Part shown: piece after piece, positions 13,401 to 26,003 of the stretch
How the letters are laid out: each line of letters opens with the position of its first letter
Numbering within the stretch: the first letter of the stretch is position 1
NCBI GenBank assembly: GCA_012719135.1
Contig: JAAYAW010000077.1
Location: 62,001-126,000 of the forward strand
Length of the DNA: 64,000 nt
Origin: Chloroflexota bacterium
GTDB lineage: Bacteria; Chloroflexota; Anaerolineae; UBA1429
Reading direction: 5' to 3'
Program-made: the position numbers and the translations under genes
The notes under the pieces: model-generated
The model's input: the letters and a program-made list of their open reading frames with translations, nothing else
Database searches by the model: none
What the model was told of the DNA's origin: nothing

Positions 13401-14039
13401 ATGGATCACAAAGAGGCCATCTTTCAGGGTATACTCGAAGGCGATATGGCTGCGGTTGACGCCGCGACCCGGGCCTCGTTGGACGCTGGGCTCGCCGCCA
13501 ACGAACTGCTTGATCAGGCGATGATCCCGGCCATGGATGAGGTCGGCCGGCTCTTTGAAGAGAACGAATACTATGTGCCTGAGCTTCTGATCGCTGCGAG
13601 GGCCATGAAGGCTGGCCTTGCGATCCTCCGCCCGCATCTCGTTGCACAGGGCATTGGGTCCAGGGGAAAGGTCGCGCTGGGCACCGTCAAGGGCGACCTT
13701 CACGATATCGGCAAGAACCTTGTCGGCATTATGATCGAGGGTGCCGGTTTTGAGGTCGTTGATCTCGGTGTTGACGTCAGCCCCGCCCAATTCGTGCAGG
13801 CCGTGGAGGAAGAAAACGCTCAGGTCATCGGCCTGTCCGCGCTGTTGACCACCACCATGCCGAGCATGCAGCGCACCATCGAAGCCTTAAGGGAGGCGGG
13901 TCTCAGGGACAAGGTCAAGGTCATCATCGGCGGAGCGCCCGTGACGCAGCGGTACGCCGACGAAATAGGTGCGGATGGGTACACGCGGGACGCCGCAGCG
14001 GCGGCCAAGCTCGTCAGGCAGATGCTATCCGAGGACTAA
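13401..14039 (+). CDS. Corrinoid (B12-binding) methyltransferase protein, MtbC/MtaC-like
   Basis: A 212-residue protein with the two-part layout of methyltransferase corrinoid proteins. Residues 1-85 are a helical cap (B12-binding 2). Residues about 90-210 are a Rossmann-like cobalamin domain with the lower-ligand motif DLHDIGKN (DxHxxG) and later IIGGAPVT. Such proteins shuttle methyl groups from methylamines, methanol or methoxy compounds to a carrier via Co(I)/methyl-Co(III). The partner methyltransferase and a reactivator are not in the window, so the substrate is unknown. SD GGAGG supports the ATG. Confidence 0.88.
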   Translation: MDHKEAIFQGILEGDMAAVDAATRASLDAGLAANELLDQAMIPAMDEVGRLFEENEYYVPELLIAARAMKAGLAILRPHLVAQGIGSRGKVALGTVKGDLHDIGKNLVGIMIEGAGFEVVDLGVDVSPAQFVQAVEEENAQVIGLSALLTTTMPSMQRTIEALREAGLRDKVKVIIGGAPVTQRYADEIGADGYTRDAAAAAKLVRQMLSED

Positions 14040-14186
14040 CAGCTGCGGGTTCACCTGCAGATCCAGATCGATGGCACCCGATTCCGCTCCGGTGCGAGTG
14101 ATTCCCGCTCGCAACTCTGGCTCGGCGACCATCAGCGTCTGCTCTCCCTCTCAAGGTTCTCCGGACCCGTCAGGCAAGGAAGTGAC

Positions 14187-15224
14187 ATGTCAGATCGGAT
14201 CGTCTCCCCAGGGCTGCAGGCCGAAGAAGGCACCCTGGATACATCATTGCGTCCGCGCAACCTGGCAGAGTACATCGGCCAGAAGCACGTGATCGATAAC
14301 CTCCAGGTGGCCCTGGAGGCTGCGCATGGCCGATCTGAGCCGCTGGATCATGTCCTTCTCCATGGCCCGCCAGGATTGGGCAAGACCACCCTGGCCTATG
14401 TGATCGCGGCAGAGATGGGCGTCAACGTCAAGATCACGTCAGGTCCCGTGGTGGAGCGACCCGGCGATCTCGCCGCCATCCTGACCAATCTGCGTGAAGG
14501 GGATATCCTCTTTGTCGATGAGGTCCATCGTCTTTCTCGGACCGTTGAAGAGGTGCTTTACCCCGCGATGGAGGACTTTTGCCTGGATCTGATGATCGGC
14601 AAAGGGCCTGCGGCTCGGAGTATTCGCCTCAATCTGCCACGGTTCACCCTTATCGGAGCCACGACGCGGATTGCCCTGCTGACCTCTCCTCTGCGGGATC
14701 GCTTCGGCGTGATCTGTCGCCTGGATTTCTATGACGATCAGGCCATGCGCAGCATTGTCCACCGCTCTGCGTCGATCTTGGGAATCCCTATCGATCAGGA
14801 AGGGGCCAACGAGATCGCCACGCGATCGCGCGGGACCCCCCGGGTGGCCAATCGGCTGTTGAGGCGCGTGCGCGACTATGCGCAGGTGCGCGGATCCGGC
14901 GTCATAGACAAGGATACCGCCGCAGCCGCCCTGCAGATGCTGCAGGTCGATGAACTCGGCCTGGACGATTCTGATAGGCGGGTGTTGGTTACGCTGGTGG
15001 AAAAGTTCGAGGGCGGGCCCGTGGGGCTGGACACCCTATCGGCGGCACTAAATGAGGACGCAGATACCATCATGGATGTCTACGAGCCCTACCTCATACA
15101 GCTGGGGTTCCTGGAACGCACGCCCCGTGGCCGGATGGCCACCCGCCGAGCGTATGAGCACGTGGGCCTGCCCTGTCCAGCCACCGAAACGCGTGCAAAC
15201 CCTGCTCAGGAACAACTCTTCTGA
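14187..15224 (+). CDS. ruvB: Holliday junction branch migration DNA helicase RuvB
   Basis: A 345-residue AAA+ motor of normal RuvB length that drives Holliday-junction branch migration with RuvA. Visible features are [12 protein letters not shown], Walker [10 protein letters not shown] near residue 60, Walker [10 protein letters not shown] near 109, the sensor/arginine-finger stretch [18 protein letters not shown] and the C-terminal winged helix ending [15 protein letters not shown]. ruvA and ruvC are not adjacent. It overlaps queH by one base (TGATG) and forms a ruvB-queH-queA unit, a common bacterial arrangement. AAGGAAG precedes the ATG. The ~147 bases between the corrinoid gene and this start show no other gene. 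Confidence 0.96.
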
Positions 15225-16006
15225 TGGCTGACGTGCTCGTCCAGGATGTATCGGGCCGTCCGCTATCGCCCTGCACACGCGAACGCGCTGAGAGCCTGGT
15301 CTCGGAGGGAAAGGCCAGCTGGATCGCATCGACCCCACCGGCCATCCGCCTTCTCCGCTCTGTGACGCGTCGCGATCCAGCCCCCCCAGAGCCCCATCCT
15401 CTGGTCGGAAAGCGGACGTTGCTGCACATATGCTGCGGCCCCTGCGCCACGTACACGGTGCAGGCCTTTCGTGCTGCCGGTGGCATCCTTACGGGCTACT
15501 GGTACAACCCGAACATCCAGCCCTTCTCAGAGCACACAGCGCGCCTCCAGGCCCTAGAATCACTGGCCGGCCAGATCGACCTCCCCGTCATCTGGGAGCC
15601 CGGGTACGATGTCGTAGCCTTCCTTCGAGCCGTTTCCGGCCAGGAAGCGCTCGGCCTCCGTTGCCGCATATGCTACCGGCAGCGGCTGGACCGCACAGCG
15701 CGCGCTGCCGCGGAGGGTGGCTTTGAGGCATTCTCGACCACCCTGCTCATCAGTCCCTATCAGAACCTGGAAGAGATCCGCTTACTCGGGAACGAGGCGG
15801 CCGAACGCTGGAGAGTCCCGTTCTATTGGGAGAACCTCCGCCGCGGATTCGCCGAGCATCACCGTCTCGCCAAGCGGTACGGGCTGTACCGGCAGCGCTA
15901 TTGCGGCTGTCTATTCTCCGAATGGGAAGCCCTCGATCGCACGGCCACTACTCGCGGGTCCCCTGACGCTGGTGCCGAGTCAGACACGGCCGCCGAAGCT
16001 TGCTGA
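15224..16006 (+). CDS. queH: Epoxyqueuosine reductase QueH with an N-terminal RRXRR/PLMP-like domain
   Basis: Residues about 62-235 are QueH (formerly DUF208), the non-cobalamin enzyme that reduces epoxyqueuosine in tRNA to queuosine. The cysteine sets expected for its Fe-S and metal sites are visible: HICCGPC (C70, C71, C74), CRIC (C147, C150) and CGC (C227, C229). Residues 1-50 are not part of ordinary QueH. The order VSGRPLSPCTRERAESL, then SEGKAS, then TPPAIRLL resembles the RRXRR (PLMP) domain found at the N terminus of IscB-type nucleases. It is followed by queA, fitting the last steps of queuosine synthesis. Confidence 0.9.
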   Translation: MADVLVQDVSGRPLSPCTRERAESLVSEGKASWIASTPPAIRLLRSVTRRDPAPPEPHPLVGKRTLLHICCGPCATYTVQAFRAAGGILTGYWYNPNIQPFSEHTARLQALESLAGQIDLPVIWEPGYDVVAFLRAVSGQEALGLRCRICYRQRLDRTARAAAEGGFEAFSTTLLISPYQNLEEIRLLGNEAAERWRVPFYWENLRRGFAEHHRLAKRYGLYRQRYCGCLFSEWEALDRTATTRGSPDAGAESDTAAEAC

Positions 16007-16108
16007 GCCACACACGATGGCCACTCACACCGGTACCCGGTTCCGCTGAACGTGCGCACCCTCATCGGGAGCCTGCGCACGCCAAACCTATGTAACTCAG
16101 GATAGCAC

Positions 16109-17134
16109 ATGCTGACTTCCGATTTCGACTACCTGCTGCCCCCAGAGCAGATCGCACAACACCCGATCGAGCCGCGGGATCGCTCCAGGCTGCTGGTCAT
16201 GCACCGCGACAACGGCAGGCTGGAGCACCGGACGTTTTCGGACCTGGTCGAGTTGCTCGTCCCCGGTGATGTTCTGGTAGCCAATGACACCCGCGTCATC
16301 CCCGCTCGCCTCATGGCTCGAAAGGACCCTTCTGGAGGCAAGGTCGAGCTGCTGCTGCTCTCTAGAGTCGATCCACTGCGGTGGGAAGCCCTGGTCAAGG
16401 GCAGACGAGCTGACCCAGGGCAGCGACTGATCATCGGAGAGGAAGCTGATCAAGTGCTGGGCTGGGTGGAGGGCGTCACCCCCAGCGGCGGGCGGCTCCT
16501 GCGTTTCGAGGATCTGATCGATGACCGATTGGAGCATCTGGGCCAGATGCCCCTGCCTCCCTATATTCACGAGACGCTTGCTGATCGGGAGCGATACCAA
16601 ACCGTCTACGCTCGCGCCCAGGGATCAGTGGCGGCGCCGACTGCAGGACTGCACTTTACGCCCGAGCTGATCGATCGGATCAAGGATATGGGAGTTGAGT
16701 GGGTCAACGTGCTGCTTCACATCGGCCTGGATACGTTCCGGCCCGTTTCCGAGGAGCGGGTGGAAGACCACGAAATACACACCGAGTACTGCGAACTGAG
16801 CGCTTCAGCCGCGGAACGCCTGAACGAGGCCCGCCATGAGGGCCGCAGAATCATCGCAATCGGCACCACGTCCGTGCGCGTCCTGGAGACAGCCTGCGCG
16901 GGAAGGCAGGCGGAAATCCTTCCCTATAGCGGACGCACGCGCCTGTTCATCTACCCCGGACATACGTTCTCTGTCGTGGACGCGATGGTTACCAACTTCC
17001 ACCTGCCACGGTCATCATTACTCATGCTCGTTTCGGCCTTTGCAGGTGTCGCCAACACGCGCCGTGCATACGACGCTGCAGTACGCTCCGGATATCGGTT
17101 CTACAGCTTTGGGGATAGTATGTTCATCGTCTAG
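16109..17134 (+). CDS. queA: S-adenosylmethionine:tRNA ribosyltransferase-isomerase QueA
   Basis: A 341-residue protein of standard QueA length. It transfers and rearranges the ribosyl group of SAM onto preQ1 at the tRNA wobble position, giving epoxyqueuosine, the substrate of the QueH encoded just upstream. The family start FDYLLPPEQIAQHPIEPRDRSR (shown in part as YLLPPEQIAQHP), VANDTRVIPARL, APTAGLHFTPEL, TTSVRVLE and TNFHLPRSSLLMLVSAF are all present. AGGATA lies before ATG 16109. About 100 bases separate it from queH, so it may be read from the ruvB-queH transcript. Confidence 0.96.
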   Translation: MLTSDFDYLLPPEQIAQHPIEPRDRSRLLVMHRDNGRLEHRTFSDLVELLVPGDVLVANDTRVIPARLMARKDPSGGKVELLLLSRVDPLRWEALVKGRRADPGQRLIIGEEADQVLGWVEGVTPSGGRLLRFEDLIDDRLEHLGQMPLPPYIHETLADRERYQTVYARAQGSVAAPTAGLHFTPELIDRIKDMGVEWVNVLLHIGLDTFRPVSEERVEDHEIHTEYCELSASAAERLNEARHEGRRIIAIGTTSVRVLETACAGRQAEILPYSGRTRLFIYPGHTFSVVDAMVTNFHLPRSSLLMLVSAFAGVANTRRAYDAAVRSGYRFYSFGDSMFIV

Positions 17135-17161
17135 CCTCTACGGCAATCTACCACAGACCCC

Positions 17162-17190
17162 TTGTGTAGACTGCGTAAAGATGCTAGTAT
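17162..17190 (+). promoter_or_regulatory. Promoter for the TPR/BTAD regulator
   Basis: TTGTGT (17162-17167), a 17-bp spacer and TAGTAT (17185-17190). The predicted start near 17197 leaves a leader of about 35 bases, which has only a weak ribosome site before ATG 17232. Confidence 0.5.
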
Positions 17191-17231
17191 CGTCGCCAGT
17201 AACGCGCTCCACTCCAGCACCAACGTGAGCC

Positions 17232-20200
17232 ATGGACGTCCACTATCCTCTAATAAACCGCAAAGTGCAGATCCCCGACCGGTCGATGACGCTGTTGCGT
17301 CGCGAACGGTTGGTGAGCTTTATGCACAGCAACATCAACCACAAGTTGATCATGGTTTCCGCCGGTGCTGGTTACGGCAAGACCTCACTGCTGGTCGACT
17401 ACGCTCATGATGCAGATCTGCCCGTTTGCTGGTACAGCCTGGATAGCGCAGACAATCAAGTCTCGACGTTCATCCAGTACCTGGTTGCCTCCATCCGTCG
17501 GCGGTTCCCAGGGTTTGGCCAAAAGGTCCTGAGTGCTCTGGCCGATTTCTCCGGTCCAGCAGAGGATATCGAGCCCTTCGTGCGTCTCCTTCTCGATGAG
17601 ATACAGCAGTCGGTAGACGACTACTTTGTCCTCATCTTGGATGATTTCCATGAGGTACTCGAGAGTGAGCCCGTCAACGCCCTCGTCGACGGGCTTTTGC
17701 GCTATCTTCCTGAGCACTGCCACATGATCATCGCGTCTCGCGCGATCCCTCGCAGGCTCACGCTCACCCGTCTGGCCGCGCGCGAGGAGATCGTGGGACT
17801 GGGCGTTCGCCAGCTCAAGTTCACGAGAGACGAGATCAGCCAGGTGCTTGCGCTCCGCGGCATGACGGAGATGACCGACGAGCAACTGGACGCGCTCGCT
17901 CTGCGGTCGGAGGGCTGGATCACAGCCATCCTGCTGGCTGCTCAGACGCGGTGGACGGATACCATCCGGAGCATACTGGAGCTTTCGGGCACACTCGACA
18001 ACGTCTTTGGGTACCTCGCCAGGGAAGTGCTGACGGCTCAGCCGCAGCATGTGCAGAGCTTTTTGCTGGGCAGCTCAGTGCTACAGGAGATGAGCCCTCC
18101 ACTCTGCGATGCGCTCCTGCAGATCGACGATTCCGCCCAGATCCTACGCTCACTCTCAGAGCAAGGGCTGTTCACCTCAGAGATCAGTAATGCATCGGGG
18201 TGGTACCAGTACCACCAGCTATTCCGCGAGTTTCTCCTCACTCGGCTAGAGGAGGAGATGCCGGCCCTGTACCGCGATCTGTGCCTCCGCGAAGCGCGAC
18301 TCATGGCCAACCAGGGTCACTGGGCCTGGGCCATCGACGGTTATATCGCCGCAGGCGCCTTTGAGGATGCCGCTGGAGCGATCGAGATCATCGCCCAGGA
18401 CTATTTCGATGCCGGGCAAGGGGCAGCCATCAAGGAGTGGATCGACTCTCTCCCGCCCCACGTTCTGGATGAACACCCCAGGCTGATGCTATTCCGCGCT
18501 CGGGTCAGTACAGAGCTCGGTGAGTACGCCGAAGCCGAGCAGATGCTCGAGCCCGCCTACAGGCTGTATGTGGAGCGCGGCAGCGAGATCGGAGCCGCAC
18601 GCGTACTGATCCAGTGGGCTATCGTCCAGAGACTCCAGGAGCGGTATCAGGATGCGGTCGACAGCTGCCATACCGTACTGCGAACGGCCTCTGAGGGCGA
18701 CGACCCGTCGTCTCACATTAAGGCCTACCAGAACCTGGGCATCTGCTACCAGATTCTTGGCGATGCAGCCCGAGGACAGCAGGAAATGCGCCGCGCACTG
18801 GAGCTTGCCCAGGCCTACGGAGACACGTTGAATGCCGCGTTCATCGCGCATGACCTCGGCAACAGCCTCTACATTGAGGGAGCCGTCGAGGAGGCGCGCC
18901 GGTATCTGCACCAGGCGCTCTTGCATTGGCGCAAAGTCGGAAACCCCGGCGACCTGGCCATGACGCTGCAGGGCCTTGGTGTGATTCATCATCACCAGGG
19001 TGAGTACGCCGAGGCGCAGAACCGATATGAAGAGAGCCTGGAGAGGGCCCGCAACATTCAGGATCGTCGTCTTGAGGCCTATGCCCTGCTGAACATGGGG
19101 GATCTGCACCGTGATCAGGGGCATCTGGACCAGGCCCTCAGTCTGTACCAGGAGGCTTTCGATGTGGCCTCCTCGGTCGGGCAGAGCGGACTCATGATCT
19201 ATATCCTGGCAGCCCAGGGTGACGTCCACAGATTGCAGAGGGACGTCGCCCTGTCACGTCAGACCCTCACTGAGGCTCTCGACCAGAGCGAACGCCAGGG
19301 ACTCGAGGAACCGATCGGGCTCTGCCACCTGGCCTTTGGGGCACTGGCGCTACAGGAGAGCGATCTGACGAGCGCCAGGAAGCACTTGGAGACTGCCCAA
19401 TCCCTGCTGGAACGCGTCGGGATGGAGCGCGATATTGGCCGCGTTCACCTGCAGATGGCTCTGTTGGCGTTATGTCAGGGCGACCGAGAAGCCATCCGCG
19501 CGCATCTGTCGCGCATTGGCGAGATCGCCGCGGAGCTGGGCACCGAGCAGTTCATCATCGCCGAGGGAGCCGGCGCGATCCCCTTGCTGGAGTCCATCTC
19601 AGAGTTCCGCATTGCAGGGCTGGATGCCACAAGGATACGTGCGCAGATCGAGGGTCTCTTTCCTTCGGTGGTCGTCGAGCCTCAGTTGCGCGTGGTCCGG
19701 CCAAATGCTGAGCTTGAGCTCTTGGGACTGGATGGTGGCCAGGTCATTTACCAGGGCCGCGTGGTTCGCGAGTTTGAATCGTCTGTGGCTCGCACCATGG
19801 CCTTCCTCCTGGCCGAGCATCCTGCTGGTCTCCCGAAAGAGCGCATCGCCGACCTGCTCTGGCAAGATGTCTCACAGGCGCGCGCGGAAAGCCTTTTCCA
19901 TTCGACGATGTATCGCCTGCGAAAAGCGCTCGACAAGCGCGTCATCATCCTGGAGGGCGGCGTGTACCGCCTGAACCCGCGGATCGTTCACAGATACGAT
20001 GTCCAGGATTTCGAGAGCTTGATCAGGCTTGGGCAGGGGTCGGATCCCGCAGCCCACCTTGCCCGCATGAACGCCATCGACCTGTACCGGACCGACTATC
20101 TCGAGTTCTGCGATTCGCCCTGGTGCTATGATATCCGTCAGGCGCTACAGCATGACATGATTCAAATCCTCACGCGAGAAGCCGAGTATCTTTGCTCCCG

Positions 20201-20444
20201 ATCTCAGATCCAGCAGGCGGAAACGCTCTATCTTCGCGTCTTGGCGCTGGATGAGTTCGACGAGCGAGCACATCGCGGGGTCATGTGGTGCCGTGCAAAA
20301 CTGGGCGATCCCTCCGGCGCCGCACGGCAGTACCGTGAGTGCACGCGCATCATCGCTGACGAGATGGGCCTTTCGCCACACCCCGACACAACCACGCTCT
20401 ACACCCTCATCCATGGGGGCCAGCTGCCGGCCTCGCCGCGCTGA
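17232..20444 (+). CDS. MalT-like ATPase/TPR transcriptional regulator with C-terminal BTAD domain
   Basis: A 1070-residue signal-transduction regulator. Residues 1-330 are a STAND/MalT-type NTPase (Walker A GAGYGKTSL near 45-53; Walker B LILDDFHEV near 134). Residues about 370-790 are TPR-like repeats (for example YQNLGICYQILGDAARGQQE). Residues about 830-920 are a winged helix of the OmpR type (FLLAEHPAGLPKERIADLLW and MYRLRKALD). Residues about 930-1060 are a bacterial transcriptional activator domain. Such proteins bind DNA through the winged helix and are switched by ligands or partners held on the TPRs. The DNA-binding part is C-terminal, unlike LuxR-type MalT. An 11-bp-phased direct repeat and a small secreted-peptide-like gene lie immediately downstream. 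Confidence 0.88.
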   Translation: MDVHYPLINRKVQIPDRSMTLLRRERLVSFMHSNINHKLIMVSAGAGYGKTSLLVDYAHDADLPVCWYSLDSADNQVSTFIQYLVASIRRRFPGFGQKVLSALADFSGPAEDIEPFVRLLLDEIQQSVDDYFVLILDDFHEVLESEPVNALVDGLLRYLPEHCHMIIASRAIPRRLTLTRLAAREEIVGLGVRQLKFTRDEISQVLALRGMTEMTDEQLDALALRSEGWITAILLAAQTRWTDTIRSILELSGTLDNVFGYLAREVLTAQPQHVQSFLLGSSVLQEMSPPLCDALLQIDDSAQILRSLSEQGLFTSEISNASGWYQYHQLFREFLLTRLEEEMPALYRDLCLREARLMANQGHWAWAIDGYIAAGAFEDAAGAIEIIAQDYFDAGQGAAIKEWIDSLPPHVLDEHPRLMLFRARVSTELGEYAEAEQMLEPAYRLYVERGSEIGAARVLIQWAIVQRLQERYQDAVDSCHTVLRTASEGDDPSSHIKAYQNLGICYQILGDAARGQQEMRRALELAQAYGDTLNAAFIAHDLGNSLYIEGAVEEARRYLHQALLHWRKVGNPGDLAMTLQGLGVIHHHQGEYAEAQNRYEESLERARNIQDRRLEAYALLNMGDLHRDQGHLDQALSLYQEAFDVASSVGQSGLMIYILAAQGDVHRLQRDVALSRQTLTEALDQSERQGLEEPIGLCHLAFGALALQESDLTSARKHLETAQSLLERVGMERDIGRVHLQMALLALCQGDREAIRAHLSRIGEIAAELGTEQFIIAEGAGAIPLLESISEFRIAGLDATRIRAQIEGLFPSVVVEPQLRVVRPNAELELLGLDGGQVIYQGRVVREFESSVARTMAFLLAEHPAGLPKERIADLLWQDVSQARAESLFHSTMYRLRKALDKRVIILEGGVYRLNPRIVHRYDVQDFESLIRLGQGSDPAAHLARMNAIDLYRTDYLEFCDSPWCYDIRQALQHDMIQILTREAEYLCSRSQIQQAETLYLRVLALDEFDERAHRGVMWCRAKLGDPSGAARQYRECTRIIADEMGLSPHPDTTTLYTLIHGGQLPASPR

Positions 20445-20499
20445 CCCACTCCCCCTGTAATCGATGCTCTCTTGTGCAAGGTGCCAAGACGAGTCCTAT

Positions 20500-20533
20500 C
20501 CGTGAGTATTCCGTGAGTCTATACGGATACGAT
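20500..20533 (+). promoter_or_regulatory. Tandem direct repeat with 11-bp phase and -10 element (BTAD operator candidate)
   Basis: CCGTGAGT occurs at 20500-20507 and again at 20511-20518, so the heptamer CGTGAGT repeats with a 4-bp spacer, the phase recognised by SARP/BTAD winged-helix activators. A TACGAT -10-like hexamer follows nine bases later (20528-20533), close to the spacing known for SARP promoters. No good -35 box is present, which is what an activator-dependent promoter looks like. The assignment is by analogy. Confidence 0.4.
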
Positions 20534-20706
20534 GCAACCAGGACCCAAAGGGGGGCCAAGCTGGGGTATTCCTCCAGCGCGGCTGCCGCCGTAACCACTC
20601 TGAGCACCGATAGCCTCATACGGTACCTCAGAGAAGGGACTGGACGGCGGGAAGGGTCCGGGTTTGTTTGGCTGGTTCGGCACTATGCGCAGTGAAGGAG
20701 CGAAGG

Positions 20707-20802
20707 ATGAGAAAGCTGTACTTTTCCGTCGTCTACGTGGTTCTTACGGCTGCCGCATTGATCGTTGCGGCGGGTGCGCCCATCCCCTGGAGTGGCAAGT
20801 GA
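20707..20802 (+). CDS. Small secreted-peptide-like protein (31 residues)
   Basis: The reading frame has an excellent ribosome site (GAAGGAG at 20694-20700, six bases before ATG). It encodes a short basic start MRKLY, a hydrophobic segment (about residues 6-22) and a short polar tail GAPIPWSGK. It could be an exported pro-peptide or a single-helix membrane peptide. Possible signal-peptidase sites are after A22, which would release GAPIPWSGK, or after A24, though proline at +1 would disfavour that one. A hairpin terminator follows 30 bases after the stop, so it looks like a monocistronic gene. I recognise no family; the function is unknown. Confidence 0.55.
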   Translation: MRKLYFSVVYVVLTAAALIVAAGAPIPWSGK

Positions 20803-20831
20803 GGCAGTTGCCCTCAGGGCCTACGGTGAGT

Positions 20832-20864
20832 CCCGTGTGCTCGGGCCCTTGCCTAGCACACGGG
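20832..20864 (+). terminator. Hairpin terminator after the small peptide gene
   Basis: A perfect 10-bp stem (20832-20841 with 20855-20864) with a 13-base loop is followed by CTTGCTGT, which is only weakly T-rich. It separates the 31-codon gene from the DUF5317 gene. Confidence 0.55.
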
Positions 20865-20909
20865 CTTGCTGTATCGAGACAGTAGAATCGCAGACAGTCC
20901 CATCCGTAC

Positions 20910-21488
20910 ATGATTCTGCTCGTCTCCATAGGTCTGGCGATCGTGGTGGCCCTCCTCCTGGGAGGGCGCCTGATCGGTCTGGCACGGGTACCTTTCAGAC
21001 TGGGGTGGCTGGCCTTTCTCGCTCTGGGCCTCCAGGTAGCAGCCGTATTCAGCTCGAACACGACGTGGCTGCCCCTGGCTATGCTCGTTGGATCATACCT
21101 TCTCCTGCTGGCGGTGATCCTGGCGAACATTCGGACGCCCGGGATTGCTCTGTTGGGACTAGGTTTGGTTGCCAACATGGCGGTGATCGCGGCTAATGGC
21201 GGGTTCATGCCCGTGACGGTCGAAGCGGTTTCCCACGCGGGATTAGAGCATCTGATCACCACGACTGATTCCGGTAGGGTGTTTGGCTCGAAAGACATCG
21301 TGCTTCCCTATTCGGACACAAGACTCTGGGTCTTGAGTGACATCATCGTCATCCGCAAGCCCACGCCAGCCGTGTTGAGTCTCGGCGATCTGATGCTTGC
21401 GGGGGGGGCCTTCTGGTTCACCCTGGCCAGCATGTGTTCCGAACGCAGGGGCCGTGCGGCGAGATCCGATAGCGAAGCAGGTCAGTAG
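20910..21488 (+). CDS. DUF5317 family membrane protein
   Basis: A 192-residue protein with about five hydrophobic helices. The AANGGFMPVT segment in the middle and SLGDLMLAGGAFWF near the end are the conserved parts of DUF5317, a family of unknown function seen in Chloroflexota and Firmicutes. The last ~20 residues are polar and charged and probably cytoplasmic. A TAGAAT -10-like box at 20883-20888 lies 22 bases before the ATG, and there is no clear Shine-Dalgarno sequence. It follows the regulator/peptide pair on the same strand. Confidence 0.75.
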   Translation: MILLVSIGLAIVVALLLGGRLIGLARVPFRLGWLAFLALGLQVAAVFSSNTTWLPLAMLVGSYLLLLAVILANIRTPGIALLGLGLVANMAVIAANGGFMPVTVEAVSHAGLEHLITTTDSGRVFGSKDIVLPYSDTRLWVLSDIIVIRKPTPAVLSLGDLMLAGGAFWFTLASMCSERRGRAARSDSEAGQ

Positions 21489-21535
21489 CCACTCCTAGTT
21501 CGGGACCGGTTCAGGCCAGTTCTGGAGTGACCGAC

Positions 21536-21760
21536 ATGAAGCACGAGGGCATCCAAGCCATCATCGGGGCAGCGATTGTGGACTCTGTGTTCCGACGCCA
21601 GCTTCTTGAGGACGCGCGTTCGGCGATCACCGAGTTCTGTCTGCCTCCGGATGATGCTGTAGCTCTGCTGTCAGCAAAGGCCACAACGTTCCAGGGCCTC
21701 GCCACAGAGATGCAGATATGGATAGCCAGCAGCGACGGCAAGAAGGTGCTCTGCCCCTAG
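21536..21760 (+). CDS. Os1348-like NHLP-clan small protein
   Basis: A 74-residue protein. The IIGAAIVDSVFRRQLLEDAR segment and the following LPPDDAVALLSAKATTFQGLA fit the Os1348 family of the nitrile-hydratase-leader-peptide clan, whose members resemble the leader parts of ribosomally made peptides. The tail (WIASSDGKKVLCP) is short. No peptide-modifying enzyme (YcaO, LanM, radical SAM) is nearby, so a RiPP role is not supported by context. GGAG eight bases before ATG 21536 defines the start. A terminator follows. Confidence 0.6.
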   Translation: MKHEGIQAIIGAAIVDSVFRRQLLEDARSAITEFCLPPDDAVALLSAKATTFQGLATEMQIWIASSDGKKVLCP

Positions 21761-21797
21761 CCCGCTCTACTACACTCTTGAACACATCTGGTCTCCC

Positions 21798-21837
21798 GAG
21801 GCGCGTGATGCCCCCACATCGCGCGCCTCAGAATTTT
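21798..21837 (+). terminator. Rho-independent terminator after the Os1348-like gene
   Basis: A 13-bp stem with one G-T wobble (21798-21810 with 21817-21829), a 6-base loop, then AGAATTTT. It ends the DUF5317/Os1348 unit before the rdgB promoter. Confidence 0.7.
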
Positions 21838-21864
21838 GCGCACAACGGCGCTATCCTGGCAGAG

Positions 21865-21892
21865 TTGAAGGTGGCATCCATAGATGTATAAT
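21865..21892 (+). promoter_or_regulatory. Promoter for rdgB
   Basis: TTGAAG (21865-21870), a 16-bp spacer and a perfect TATAAT (21887-21892). The predicted start lies near 21899, 20 bases before the rdgB ATG. Confidence 0.65.
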
Positions 21893-21919
21893 GGCGCCGC
21901 GATCGGAGGCGCGCGCAGA

Positions 21920-22519
21920 ATGCTTATCGCGACGGGAAACACGGGCAAGGTTGCCGAGTACCGGATCCTGCTTTCTTCGTGGTCAGACGACCTGGTCGGA
22001 TTGGGAGACCTGGGCATTACCGCCACGGTTGAGGAGAACGGAAGCACCTTCGCCGAGAACGCTTTGCTCAAGGCGCGCTTCTACTCGTCCGTGGCCGGTC
22101 AGGTGGTTCTGGCGGATGACTCGGGACTTGAAGTGGACGCACTGGGAGGGCGCCCTGGCATACGCTCCGCACGCTACGGAGGGCCGGAGGCCACCGACGA
22201 GGATCGCTACCTGCGCTTGCTGGCGGAGATGGAGGGCATTCCGGCCGATCAGCGTGGCGCACGCTTCCGTTGCGCCATTGCCGTCGCCTGGCCTGACGGC
22301 CACAGCGCGTTGACGACAGGCACGTGTGAGGGGGAGATTGCTTTAGAGCCGCGAGGCAGCAACGGGTTCGGATACGATCCGGTGTTTCTGATCACGTCTC
22401 TCGGCTTTACCATGGCGGAACTCCCGCCGGAAACCAAGAATGCCATCAGCCACCGGGCTCGCGCAGCTCTGGCCATGCTGCGCTTACTGCGTGCCCACTC
22501 GGCATCAAGGGGCCGCTAA
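21920..22519 (+). CDS. rdgB: XTP/dITP pyrophosphatase (RdgB/HAM1)
   Basis: A 199-residue house-cleaning nucleotide pyrophosphatase that hydrolyses dITP, XTP and similar non-canonical triphosphates to monophosphates. The family signatures are all present: ATGNTGKVAEY at the N terminus, TFAENALLKA, ADDSGLEVDALGGRPGIRSA (metal-binding aspartates), GFGYDPVF and SHRARA. ATG 21920 is preferred over ATG 21884 because the latter lies inside the -10 box region and would add a non-homologous tail, while GGAGG sits ten bases before 21920. It ends tail-to-tail with the CBS/ACT gene. Confidence 0.95.
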   Translation: MLIATGNTGKVAEYRILLSSWSDDLVGLGDLGITATVEENGSTFAENALLKARFYSSVAGQVVLADDSGLEVDALGGRPGIRSARYGGPEATDEDRYLRLLAEMEGIPADQRGARFRCAIAVAWPDGHSALTTGTCEGEIALEPRGSNGFGYDPVFLITSLGFTMAELPPETKNAISHRARAALAMLRLLRAHSASRGR

Positions 22520-22551
22520 AGCGATCATCTCGCGGTGTCGCGGGAGTCTGC

Positions 22552-23199
22552 CTACTGCGTCTCGCGGATGTCCACAAGCACAGCTCCGAGACTATCCACG
22601 ATTCTCCTCATCTCCTGCTGATCAATACCCTGCACCTTGATGACGATCTCACGATTGCTTGGGTCATCGCCCCAGAACGTGCTCAGCGCGACGATGTCCG
22701 CGCCAGTGGTGGAGATCGCTTGGGCGAGCCTGGCCAACATGCCCCGCTGATCCGGTACCCGCACGGTCACGCGGATTCCCCAATCGCGGGCGCCCAGCAG
22801 CTCGAGAAAAACCTTGAAGAGATCGCTCTCGGTGATCATGCCTACCAAGGTACCATCGCGCATCACCGGTAAGCCGCCGATGTTGTTGTCAGCCATGATG
22901 CGCGCGGCCTCTTCGAGTGAGCAATCCTCGGCCACGGTGACCACATCGCGGGTCATCAGACCCTCTACCTTGATCCGAGAGACGAGATAGTTCAGCTCGT
23001 ATACGCTGAGGCTCGTGGCAGGAGACGGGGAGGCGTACAGCAGATCCTTCTCCAGGACGATCCCAACCAGCGTTCCGGCCTTATCCACCACAGGCAGACG
23101 CCTAACCTTTTCATCGCGCATAATCCGAAGCGCTTCATTCAGCGGAGTGTCGGGACGTATCGTAATAGGGTGACGCGACATGCGCTCTTTGACCAGCAT
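22552..23199 (-). CDS. CBS-pair protein with C-terminal ACT domain
   Basis: A 215-residue protein. Two CBS domains (about 1-60 and 75-130; LPVVDKAGTLVGIVLEKDLL and GLPVMRDGTLVGMITESDL) are followed by an ACT domain (about 143-215; RVPDQRGMLARLAQAI). CBS pairs usually sense adenosine nucleotides and ACT domains sense amino acids, so this is probably a small cytoplasmic regulator resembling AcuB, with unknown target. The start at 23199 has AGGAGGG about six bases upstream. An in-frame ATG at 23256 lies before that site and is rejected. A near-perfect promoter lies at 23307-23335. Confidence 0.85.
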   Translation of the reverse strand: MLVKERMSRHPITIRPDTPLNEALRIMRDEKVRRLPVVDKAGTLVGIVLEKDLLYASPSPATSLSVYELNYLVSRIKVEGLMTRDVVTVAEDCSLEEAARIMADNNIGGLPVMRDGTLVGMITESDLFKVFLELLGARDWGIRVTVRVPDQRGMLARLAQAISTTGADIVALSTFWGDDPSNREIVIKVQGIDQQEMRRIVDSLGAVLVDIRETQ

Positions 23200-23306
23200 G
23201 GAATTCCCTCCTGAATGCCCGGCCTTTGCCCTGACTGGCGCCTGTCCGAACAACAAGCGTGCTCGCTCACTACACGGGATGTCACGAAGACGGCCTGACG
23301 CAGCAG

Positions 23307-23335
23307 ATTATACCTTCAGTGAGAGTGCATGTCGA
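23307..23335 (-). promoter_or_regulatory. Promoter for the CBS/ACT gene
   Basis: On the minus strand TCGACA (23335-23330), a 17-bp spacer and TATAAT (23312-23307). The start near 23300 gives a leader of about 100 bases. Confidence 0.65.
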
Positions 23336-23397
23336 GCAGTACACGGCCTTCGGAGGTCAACCGGAGCCATGCAGAGACGTGCCCGTCCACAAGAGCC

Positions 23398-23426
23398 TTG
23401 ACACACCTCCCCGGCTGTGCCATACT
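23398..23426 (+). promoter_or_regulatory. Promoter for the flavin reductase-like gene
   Basis: A consensus TTGACA (23398-23403), a 17-bp spacer and CATACT (23421-23426). The predicted start near 23433 leaves a leader of about 19 bases to GTG 23452, with a GGGGGG tract serving as ribosome site. It diverges from the promoter at 23307-23335. Confidence 0.6.
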
Positions 23427-23451
23427 CGCTCGCATTAGGGGGGTACATCAG

Positions 23452-24006
23452 GTGAAGCGTGAGATTTCAGGAAAACTGGCGCATCGCCTGCTCGCAGGGC
23501 GTCCCACATGTTTGGTGACCACCCGCTACCGCGGTGAGCACAATGTGATGACCCTCTCTTGGGCGTGCCCCATTAGTCTCGTCCCCCCGCTGCTGATGCT
23601 CGCGATCCACCCGGCAACGCACTCGCACGGGCTGTTGCTCAGGGGCGAGGAGTGCGTGCTCAATATCCCGGCGCGGCCTCTGGGCGAACAACTCGTCCGC
23701 TATGGAACTCGCTCCGGCGCGGATTCGGACAAGCTGCGTGAGAGCGGCGTATCCGTCCAGGCAGGGCATCGCGTGCAAGCGTTGTGGATAGATGATTGTC
23801 TGGCACATATCGAGTGTGCCGTCGTCGAGAGGCTGGCTCCGGGAGATCATTCGCTCTTTATTGTCGAGATAGTTGGCGCCTGGGCGGAGGAAGAAGCCTT
23901 CACGGAAACGTGGCACGTTCAGGACACGCCGGAGGATCTCCTACCGGTTATCCATCTTGGCGGCTCCACGTACGGTCTCTGGGGAACAGAAATCCAGCTC
24001 GGCTAA
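23452..24006 (+). CDS. Flavin reductase-like domain protein
   Basis: A 184-residue FMN-binding split-barrel protein of the flavin reductase-like/DIM6-NTAB family. The KLAHRLLAGRPTCLVTTR start, NVMTLSWACPISLVPPLLMLAI and ECVLNIPA segments are typical. Such proteins bind FMN and reduce flavins or act as small flavoproteins; the partner is unknown. GTG 23452 is chosen because it follows a GGGGGGTACATCAG tract and the predicted transcript starts just upstream. A longer in-frame ATG at 23329 lies upstream of the promoter and is not credible. Confidence 0.85.
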   Translation: MKREISGKLAHRLLAGRPTCLVTTRYRGEHNVMTLSWACPISLVPPLLMLAIHPATHSHGLLLRGEECVLNIPARPLGEQLVRYGTRSGADSDKLRESGVSVQAGHRVQALWIDDCLAHIECAVVERLAPGDHSLFIVEIVGAWAEEEAFTETWHVQDTPEDLLPVIHLGGSTYGLWGTEIQLG

Positions 24007-24126
24007 AGCGCCTGCTGCGCGTTCCTTCGGTCGAGAAGATCGTGTATTTACCGGCTCCCATGGCAAAGCGTCTAGATTGATCGATGAAGGCATCACTGCC
24101 GGCACGCGACATGATAGGAAGCAAGA

Positions 24127-24633
24127 TTGAGCCCTATCCTAACCGCGAATGACTTTGACGCCGTTACGCACAGTCCCGCTCAGACGCATGCCATCGGCAA
24201 GCGTCTCGGGCAACTGTTGCGGGCTGGCGATGTCATCTGCCTTCAGGGCGAGTTGGGGACTGGAAAGACCTGCCTGACACAGGGCATCGGTGCGGGGTTG
24301 AACGTCACGGGCGTCATCAACAGCCCCACCTTTGTCTTTGTCAATGAGTACCGGCCTGCAAGCCCGGGCCCCTGTCTCTACCACATCGATCTCTACCGGA
24401 TATCGGATCGCATTGAAATCCTCAGCCTGGGCCTGGAGGACTATATCTACGGCAACGGCGTGACGGTCATCGAGTGGGCCGACCGCGCCAGGGAGGTCAT
24501 ACCCCACGATCGTCTGTGGGTCACGCTGGACTATACCGACCACATGAAGAGGTCACTGGTCTTTGAGGCCACGGGCGAGCGTTATCGGGAGATCGTGGAG
24601 GCCCTCAGGCACGATGTATATGGAGGGCGCTAG
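24127..24633 (+). CDS. tsaE: tRNA threonylcarbamoyladenosine biosynthesis ATPase TsaE
   Basis: A 168-residue P-loop protein needed with TsaB and TsaD to make N6-threonylcarbamoyladenosine at tRNA position 37. Walker A GELGTGKTCLTQGIG, the INSPTFVFVNEY switch segment, LYHIDLYR and VIEWADR are all present. The start is a TTG at 24127 with AGGAAG five bases upstream; no ATG fits. It begins the tsaE-tsaB-rimI-surE gene run, the standard grouping for this pathway. The ~120 bases before it show no gene. Confidence 0.93.
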   Translation: MSPILTANDFDAVTHSPAQTHAIGKRLGQLLRAGDVICLQGELGTGKTCLTQGIGAGLNVTGVINSPTFVFVNEYRPASPGPCLYHIDLYRISDRIEILSLGLEDYIYGNGVTVIEWADRAREVIPHDRLWVTLDYTDHMKRSLVFEATGERYREIVEALRHDVYGGR

Positions 24634-24654
24634 CGCTCTCCTTCAGGAGCAACC

Positions 24655-25332
24655 ATGATTCTGGCTATCGACTCAGCTACGCGTACCGCCAGCATCGCAC
24701 TGTATGATCAAACGGGCCTGGTGGCAGAGGAAAGCTGGAGATCCAACAACAACCACTCTGTGGAGCTCATGCCGGCTATCACGCGGCAGATCGAGCGTCA
24801 AGGGCTCACGATGCAGGATCTCACGGGTGTCGCTATCGCTTCGGGGCCCGGGTCATTTACCGGCCTGAGGATCGGCATGAGTACCGCAAAGGGCCTATGC
24901 CTGGCGCTTCAGATCCCCATCATAGGCATACCGACGCTTCAGGTCACGGCGTACGCGGCCGGCGATCCCGGGTGCCCGATCCTCGCCATTGCGGAAGCAG
25001 GACGCGGCCGGATCAACGTTGGCCGCTATCTCTACGAGAACGGCTTGCCCGTCCTCACCTCCCCGGTGGAGATCCAACGCTCGTCCGACTGGACGCCCGA
25101 TCTGTCAGACTATACCCTCGCTGCCGGCGAGATCGACGCGTCACTGGCCGAAAGGCTTTCCACGCTTCCCGGCTCCGAGCGACTGTCAATCGTATCGCTT
25201 GCCGCCTCCGTTCGCCGCGCCGGCTTCCTGGCCGAGCTCGCCTGGGACCGCCTGGTTCGTGGAGACTTTGACGACCTGGATTCCTCGGAGCCGTCCTACG
25301 TCCAGCAGCCCCTGTCGGGCCAGGCTGACTGA
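24655..25332 (+). CDS. tsaB: tRNA threonylcarbamoyladenosine biosynthesis protein TsaB
   Basis: A 225-residue member of the ASKHA fold that acts as the non-catalytic partner of TsaD in t6A synthesis. The ILAIDSATRTASIALYD start, the NNHSVELMPAI stretch and GVAIASGPGSFTGLRIG (the conserved GPGSFTGLR loop) identify it. CAGGAGC four bases before the ATG supports the start. It lies 21 bases after tsaE and 6 bases before rimI. Confidence 0.94.
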   Translation: MILAIDSATRTASIALYDQTGLVAEESWRSNNNHSVELMPAITRQIERQGLTMQDLTGVAIASGPGSFTGLRIGMSTAKGLCLALQIPIIGIPTLQVTAYAAGDPGCPILAIAEAGRGRINVGRYLYENGLPVLTSPVEIQRSSDWTPDLSDYTLAAGEIDASLAERLSTLPGSERLSIVSLAASVRRAGFLAELAWDRLVRGDFDDLDSSEPSYVQQPLSGQAD

Positions 25333-25338
25333 CACCCC

Positions 25339-25992
25339 ATGGATCTTTCGGGCCTGCCGTTTACTCTGGAAATCATGCTGCCGTCGGATATCCTGACAGT
25401 ATCTTCGATCGAGGGGCAGGTGTTCGCCACGCCATGGTCGGCGGAAGCCTATCTCCAGGAACTCCTGTACCACGTTGACGCCTATTACTACGTGCTCCGA
25501 TTCACCGACCGAAACGTCCTGGACGAACGCTATCCGCAGCGTCCCTGGGCGGGCACTCACGATCCTGCGTTGATTGGATACGGCGGGCTATGGCTCATCC
25601 TGGAGCAGGGCCACGTGAGTACCCTCGCCGTGCGGCCCTCGTGGCGCGGACGGGGCCTCGGCGAGTTGCTGTTCGCTTCTCTGGTGGAAAAGGCGATGGA
25701 TGTGGGCTGCGAGGAACTGACCCTTGAGGTTCGCATCACCAACCAGAGAGCACAGAACCTGTACGCCAAGTACGGCCTGCAAGTCACGGGCCGGCGCCCC
25801 CGATACTACCCCGATAATCAGGAGGACGCCTGGATCATGTCATCTCCCCCGTTGCATGGCTACGCCTATCGCGAGGCATTCGGCGAGCTGGTCGGGCAAC
25901 TGCGCAGCCGCCTGTTGTCGGAGCGCCAGACGATTCCAGAGTTGACGGCTTGCCAAAGAGGACGCGCACAGTCTCCGGATCAGCGGACGTGA
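25339..25992 (+). CDS. rimI: Ribosomal-protein-alanine N-acetyltransferase RimI-like
   Basis: A 217-residue GNAT acetyltransferase. The acetyl-CoA loop RPSWRGRGLGELL near residue 95 and the LEVRITNQRAQNLYAKYGL segment are typical of RimI, which acetylates the N terminus of ribosomal protein S18; tsaB neighbours are usual for it. It is longer than the ~150-residue enzymes, with an insert around YYYVLRFTDRNVLDERYPQ and a C-terminal tail of about 40 residues after DAWIM, so the exact substrate is less certain. Confidence 0.85.
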   Translation: MDLSGLPFTLEIMLPSDILTVSSIEGQVFATPWSAEAYLQELLYHVDAYYYVLRFTDRNVLDERYPQRPWAGTHDPALIGYGGLWLILEQGHVSTLAVRPSWRGRGLGELLFASLVEKAMDVGCEELTLEVRITNQRAQNLYAKYGLQVTGRRPRYYPDNQEDAWIMSSPPLHGYAYREAFGELVGQLRSRLLSERQTIPELTACQRGRAQSPDQRT

Positions 25993-26003
25993 GCGGCACC
26001 GAT

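Follow-up and report, generated by a model that had tools for sequence, protein, structure and literature searches.

We describe a conserved locus in a 64,000-nucleotide stretch of a Chloroflexota genome (assembly GCA_012719135.1, contig JAAYAW010000077.1, positions 62,001 to 126,000; hereafter the window, whose own numbering is used throughout). Here a large transcriptional regulator, a 31-codon peptide gene and a membrane protein of the function-unassigned family DUF5317 form a conserved and apparently undescribed operon with SARP-like control predicted from its sequence. The regulator (17232..20444, + strand, 1070 aa) is followed on the same strand by the peptide gene (20707..20802, encoding MRKLYFSVVYVVLTAAALIVAAGAPIPWSGK), by DUF5317 (20910..21488, 192 aa) and by a 74-aa putative small protein of the Os1348/NHLP clan (21536..21760). 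The original prediction for this DNA had proposed that the regulator and the peptide make up a self-contained signalling locus. Their adjacency and conservation are borne out, but the proposed unit was too short, as DUF5317 and the Os1348-like gene also belong to the locus; the core consists of peptide and DUF5317, and the signalling role is plausible and unproven. On balance, we consider it probable that the locus is a regulator-controlled membrane-peptide operon in which the peptide works with DUF5317 as an envelope signalling device.

Conserved gene order around the peptide

Searches of flanking DNA with tblastn and profile scans recovered a conserved gene order in relatives, consisting of the regulator, one or more peptide genes, DUF5317 and the Os1348/NHLP-like gene. 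For an unbiased sample, 80 loci were picked from named genomes by DUF5317 alone, which avoids selection on the peptide. The regulator lies upstream in 48 of these loci; among the 48, the peptide directly precedes DUF5317 in 47 (the model overlooked several of these peptides, which share the plan of the others and were recognised by eye), and an Os1348-like gene follows DUF5317 in 45. The exception, locus L147, has kept an intact phased repeat and -10 box of the kind described below. At L147:2300-2640 the N-terminal half of the peptide appears to be joined to DUF5317 with a frame change, reflecting a deletion, a fusion or an assembly error.

The two core genes also occur together across genomes. 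Among 60 relatives, 24 hold both peptide and DUF5317, 33 hold neither and three are discordant, one of them where a contig ends. Expressed differently, the peptide is present in 24/25 genomes with DUF5317 vs 2/35 genomes without it (Fisher p 2e-13, with no phylogenetic correction), two of the 24 (G029 and G041) resting on weak peptide matches beside DUF5317.

The 31-codon peptide gene and its family

The peptide gene is preceded by a strong ribosome-binding site, GAAGGAG (20694..20700, +), and encodes a basic N-terminus, one hydrophobic helix and a short tail, all as originally read from the sequence. This plan is shared by about 110 aligned peptides, in which an (S/A/G)GAP border separates the helix from a short tail that is Gly-rich or aromatic; within the window's family this tail shows good conservation. 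Searches of related whole genomes found homologues (reaching E 1e-21) in most genomes of the window's family, mostly beside orthologous regulators; identity to the 31-mer within the family is at most 73%, and the gene often stands in 2-3 tandem copies. Draft assemblies may understate copy number: in genome G009 a contig break falls within tandem peptide copies (L035:9463-9737, L036:1-344). A model built from 28 aligned peptides gave strong recovery (E < 1e-5) in about 50 of the 298 genomes of the class, spread over many families, and the Pfam and NCBIfam models gave no match for the peptide.

Pairwise codon comparison indicates that the peptide is under purifying selection, with ratios of nonsynonymous to synonymous substitution rates (dN/dS) of 0.05-0.23 in 13 pairs and nucleotide differences concentrated at third codon positions (1192/847/2263 over the three positions). 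A Shine-Dalgarno match of at least 4 bases precedes 98 of the 99 non-redundant peptides and 91 of the 99 start with ATG, figures that are partly built in, because starts were picked partly on these two features. Lack of conservation beside orthologous regulators, or codon statistics foreign to a translated gene, had been named as grounds for abandoning the prediction; homologues and phased repeats were found beside those regulators, and the codon statistics of the family of 20707-20802 are those given above. By these measures the 31-codon open reading frame (ORF) is a genuine conserved gene that is predicted to be translated.

An 11- or 12-bp-phased repeat upstream of the peptide

The direct repeat CGTGAGT-N4-CGTGAGT lies between regulator and peptide (20501-20507 and 20512-20518, + strand, 11-bp phase), followed by the -10-like box TACGAT (20528..20533, +), which starts 16 nt downstream of the first base of the second CGTGAGT and has no -35 hexamer. 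Both elements are present as originally reported. The 2.64-Mb genome holds a single copy of the exact phased pair, at the regulator locus, and sites with 2 mismatches to it are at background level.

Repeats of this geometry recur in homologous loci. Across 66 non-redundant regulator-to-peptide intergenic gaps, a perfect 8-bp direct repeat occurs at phase 11 in 18 gaps (shuffles average 0.13, with a maximum of 2) and at phase 12 in 19, while phases 7-10 and 13-22 account for 0-2 gaps each. Altogether, about 47 of the 66 loci carry 11- or 12-bp-phased repeats upstream of the peptide, and in 29 of these 47 a -10-like box lies at 16-20 nt, counted from where the last repeat starts; the 16-nt spacing of the window is also found in L031, L032, L038, L039 and L043. 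The 165-base leader between repeat and peptide gene, at first regarded as a weak point of the prediction, is no concern in most relatives: the distance from repeat to peptide start is about 60-130 bases there. The half-sites vary by clade (CGTGAGT, GCTAAAC, TAGTAAA, GTAAGCAC, TGTCAGTG, GAAGCCTG and GTTAACA) and the phase stays constant. A varying motif with fixed geometry is the pattern that a co-evolving regulator-operator pair would be expected to produce. Half-site similarity and similarity of the DNA-binding domains correlate with r 0.3, a value confounded by kinship and by mispicked repeats (L031, L032, L037, L042) and not used as proof.

Known SARP operators consist of heptamers separated by four-base spacers (11-bp units), which occupy the -35 position in two or three copies (PMC10972967; PMC5930380). 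The repeat and -10 box of the window appear to have this SARP-like operator anatomy, and we consider the repeat the predicted operator of the regulator. The proposal that SARP-type phased repeats give the regulator control over the neighbouring peptide gene is thus well supported by sequence, and the regulator very probably controls the operon directly. Autoregulation of the regulator gene through the same repeat was also considered and rejected, as no consistent second copy was found upstream of the regulator gene in the loci examined.

Domain architecture of the regulator

The regulator was correctly described as an ATPase/TPR/BTAD protein of 1070 residues. A Walker A motif (AGAGYGKT, residue 44) and a Walker B-like motif (FVLILDD, residue 132) can be read in its NTPase part, which is MalT-like: residues 8-418 align to MalT (8bob, 1.9e-35) in a PDB search, and the NCBIfam MalT model matches residues 7-529 at 3.6e-77, under the family cut-off. 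The TPR region that follows (about residues 430-760) is also MalT-like by Pfam. The C-terminal end carries a winged helix and a BTAD (about residues 857-1058); the BTAD matches PF03704 at 2.4e-15 over residues 923-1058, and in PDB the AfsR DNA-binding part (8hvr, 9.8e-7) aligns with residues 857-1056. Pfam gave no match for a LuxR-type helix-turn-helix (HTH), the BTAD standing in its place, and neither Pfam nor PDB gave a match for an Xre HTH. No paralogue was found in a search of the regulator's own genome. Membership in a defence system was considered and rejected, as a PADLOC scan returned just generic TPR matches and one weak match.

From these matches the regulator is best described as a MalT-type switch bearing a SARP-type DNA-binding end, arranged in the order NTPase, TPR and SARP domain. 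Large SARPs such as AfsR and PimR have the same kinds of parts (a winged-helix and BTAD DNA-binding end, an NTPase and TPRs), together with phased heptamer repeats that overlap the -35 region and precede a -10 box, which are predicted here from sequence. In large SARPs, however, the SARP domain is N-terminal, followed by NB-ARC and then TPR (PMC10972967). In the window's regulator the DNA-binding part is C-terminal and the NTPase MalT-like, the target is a small-peptide/DUF5317 operon instead of an antibiotic cluster, and many of the loci have a 12-bp phase. MalT/LAL STAND proteins share the NTPase, alignable over about 410 residues, the Walker A and B motifs and the MalT-type TPRs, and differ in carrying a LuxR HTH where the regulator has a SARP-type domain. 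The reversed order and the lack of a LuxR HTH set the regulator apart from canonical large SARPs and from MalT, and it is no RRNPP receptor either. The original comparison with the RRNPP group does not hold at the level of membership: RRNPPA receptors are compact proteins with an N-terminal Xre-type HTH (where present) and a TPR domain, whereas the regulator starts with a MalT-like NTPase and ends in a BTAD-type DNA-binding domain.

DUF5317 and its relation to the peptide

The window's DUF5317 protein matches PF17248 at 1.3e-28 (100.3 bits vs a cut-off of 25) and is predicted to have five membrane helices. An AlphaFold2 (AF2) model of DUF5317 (predicted local distance difference test score, pLDDT, 95) shows about five membrane helices together with a loop that is itself structured. 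In 62 DUF5317 sequences, thirteen columns are invariant; NGG.MP, the D of LSD and S.GD are among them. The charge distribution predicts the N-terminus and the conserved NGGxMP...SD...SxGD loop outside and the C-terminus inside; the basic N-terminus of the peptide would likewise place its tail on the outer side, the same as the conserved loop.

The motif NGGxMP...SD...SxGD suggested an LspA-like aspartyl protease, a candidate that found no support in comparison by hhalign with the genome's own LspA (probability 0.6%, single sequence); LspA was also not among the Foldseek matches of DUF5317. In locus L131, peptide and DUF5317 were modelled with AF2 as one read-through chain, the stop codon being read as Gly and serving as a linker. 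This chain has a predicted template modelling score (pTM) of 0.88, with a pLDDT of about 94-97 in the peptide helix; DUF5317 alone, modelled from a different homologue, has a pTM of 0.87. The model suggests that the peptide helix packs on DUF5317.

In a literature search with most subscription journals outside its scope, DUF5317 was mentioned nowhere and nothing relevant was found on peptide signalling with BTAD/TPR regulators in Chloroflexota; the association of DUF5317 with a short peptide is apparently undescribed. The operon gives a rich genomic context to a family of unassigned function and to a peptide family without a Pfam or NCBIfam match here, and offers a bounded regulator-operator-peptide circuit that is open to testing in Chloroflexota, for which the literature search yielded no peptide-signalling system.

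The peptide and DUF5317 in other phyla

A second architecture was found under the record titles Bacillota, Bipolaricaulota, Actinomycetota and, in some cases, Chloroflexota. Here a peptide of the same plan (MKWR..LYVLL...SGAxxKW) and DUF5317 flank a protein of about 440 aa, the peptide coming first. Loci L178, L180, L184, L199, L175, L176, L185, L194, L153, L044 and L114, whose record titles are Bacillota, Bipolaricaulota and Chloroflexota, have this order. The middle protein is, in all cases tested with Pfam, an HD-GYP protein with a MASE9-like membrane part. In L166:3517-4233, from a record titled Armatimonadetes, the peptide MRWRLLHLVLTLLMLAALLLASGANGKWG immediately precedes DUF5317, and both regulator and HD-GYP are missing. 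The regulator is therefore one of at least two partners of a peptide/DUF5317 core: as the pair occurs with HD-GYP or alone in other phyla, its constant element is peptide plus DUF5317 and not peptide plus TPR. Pairs without a TPR regulator also argue against the TPR region as the sole or original receptor of the peptide; the earlier suggestion that the tail binds this region finds no support so far, DUF5317 being the most constant partner.

Two further arrangements were noted. In L168:6001-6713 (record titled Actinobacteria) the peptide MRKWTLLRWLLAVAAIVVAGGAPTKWA lies directly downstream, not upstream, of DUF5317. Genome G012 appears to hold both architectures, with the regulator type on contig C238 and, on contig C112, a weak peptide match about 1.6 kb upstream of DUF5317.

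Proposed mechanism and alternative explanations

In the mechanism that we favour, the STAND-type regulator, with its MalT-like switch, TPR sensor and SARP/OmpR-type DNA-binding end, would be switched on by some cue, bind as side-by-side monomers to the 11-bp-phased repeat, immediately ahead of the weak -10 box, and recruit RNA polymerase, so that the genes for the peptide, DUF5317 and the Os1348-like protein are transcribed. The peptide would span the membrane once as a helix, N-terminus inside and short conserved tail outside, and would act with DUF5317, whose invariant NGGxMP/SD/SxGD loop is also predicted to face out. The likeliest role of DUF5317 would be to bind, process or pass on the peptide tail. 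Several results weigh against this mechanism: 19 of the 66 intergenic gaps yield no repeat at the threshold applied (in some of them probably because a wrong start was chosen), a few loci such as L042 have no nearby DUF5317, and neither sequence nor fold comparison gives DUF5317 a significant PDB match. In addition, the tail has a pLDDT of about 40-63 in the L131 chain, where peptide and protein are covalently linked and docking is at most suggested. HD-GYP as an alternative partner in other phyla fits a signalling role and suggests one peptide/membrane-protein core wired to different outputs. We tentatively raise the possibility that peptide and DUF5317 constitute a new short-peptide signalling module across several phyla, in which DUF5317 would make, export or sense the tail and the output would be interchangeable (the SARP/MalT hybrid in Chloroflexota; the c-di-GMP phosphodiesterase-like HD-GYP in Bacillota, Bipolaricaulota and others).

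In several phyla the peptide is paired almost without exception with DUF5317, the bare pair of L166 among them. This pairing and the confident placement of the helix in the fused L131 model would suit a constitutive small subunit that stabilises or structures DUF5317 and carries no signal, the regulator merely inducing an envelope function under stress. We find this doubtful, since 1-3 tandem copies with conserved tail-specific residues are unusual for a fixed stoichiometry and the peptide is kept without a nearby DUF5317 in L042, L045 and L098. That the tail acts as a diffusible signal feeding back on the regulator is speculative. A full pheromone loop, in which the peptide would be exported, cut near the (S/A)GAP border, re-imported as a tail and bound by the TPR region to give autoinduction, draws on the adjacent gene, the TPR sensor, the tandem copies and the operator at the peptide's own promoter. 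It has precedent in Rgg/SHP and other RRNPPA systems, where a short hydrophobic peptide gene also adjoins a TPR regulator and precursors also come in multiple copies (PMC9765709). Such a loop would be feasible in this genome, which encodes M50 proteases and 4 SBP_bac_5 oligopeptide-binding proteins; proteases of this kind and importers are, however, near-universal. The regulator's architecture is unrelated to that of RRNPPA systems and departs from the RRNPP domain order, DUF5317 is a near-obligate partner here, and the peptide-DUF5317 pair does without any TPR regulator in other phyla. The tail is moreover conserved within the window's family, where private signals might diversify, and we regard the loop as unlikely.

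A bacteriocin- or RiPP-like locus (RiPP, ribosomally synthesized and post-translationally modified peptide), with the small peptides or the Os1348-like protein as antimicrobial precursors and DUF5317 as immunity or export protein, is brought to mind by the Os1348/NHLP-clan neighbour and by the SARPs, which typically control antibiotic clusters (PMC10972967). Os1348 itself is antibiotic-related in Pseudomonas sp. Os17, and such small proteins have neighbouring modification genes (PMC7726476). The fourth gene of the locus appears to carry the same domain, the window copy scoring just under the NF038399 cut-off (37.1 vs 40 bits) and orthologues above it (56.8 bits in L031, 53.4 in L041). Unlike in Os17, no modification genes or maturase were identified among the block genes of the window and its relatives, the flanking genes not having been systematically annotated. 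The Os1348-like proteins are mostly short, leader-like domains with variable ends, often very short, and the peptides show strong purifying selection, not diversification; this reading is quite improbable. Finally, the ORF is short, and 152 ORFs of at least 30 aa overlap 14000-26000 on both strands, which would invite the view that ORF and repeat arose by chance. Conservation, dN/dS and the repeat statistics refute this view, leaving it a negligible probability.

Additional features of the locus

A 10-bp hairpin (20832-20841/20855-20864, + strand) lies between the peptide gene and DUF5317, with a z of -6.3 for the 47-nt stem-loop. It had been read as a terminator; the hairpin is present, but the terminator label is doubtful, because it has no T-run, no intrinsic terminator was scored after the peptide, and the structure lies inside the gene block before DUF5317. 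It could tune expression of the downstream genes. Inspection of a few relatives by eye revealed no obvious counterpart, and Rfam gave no match in the leader or in the gap between peptide and DUF5317. Elsewhere in the window, at 15224-16006, a gene for a QueH-like epoxyqueuosine reductase adjoins QueA; the reductase has an additional match to an RRXRR domain (4e-6) at its N-terminus.

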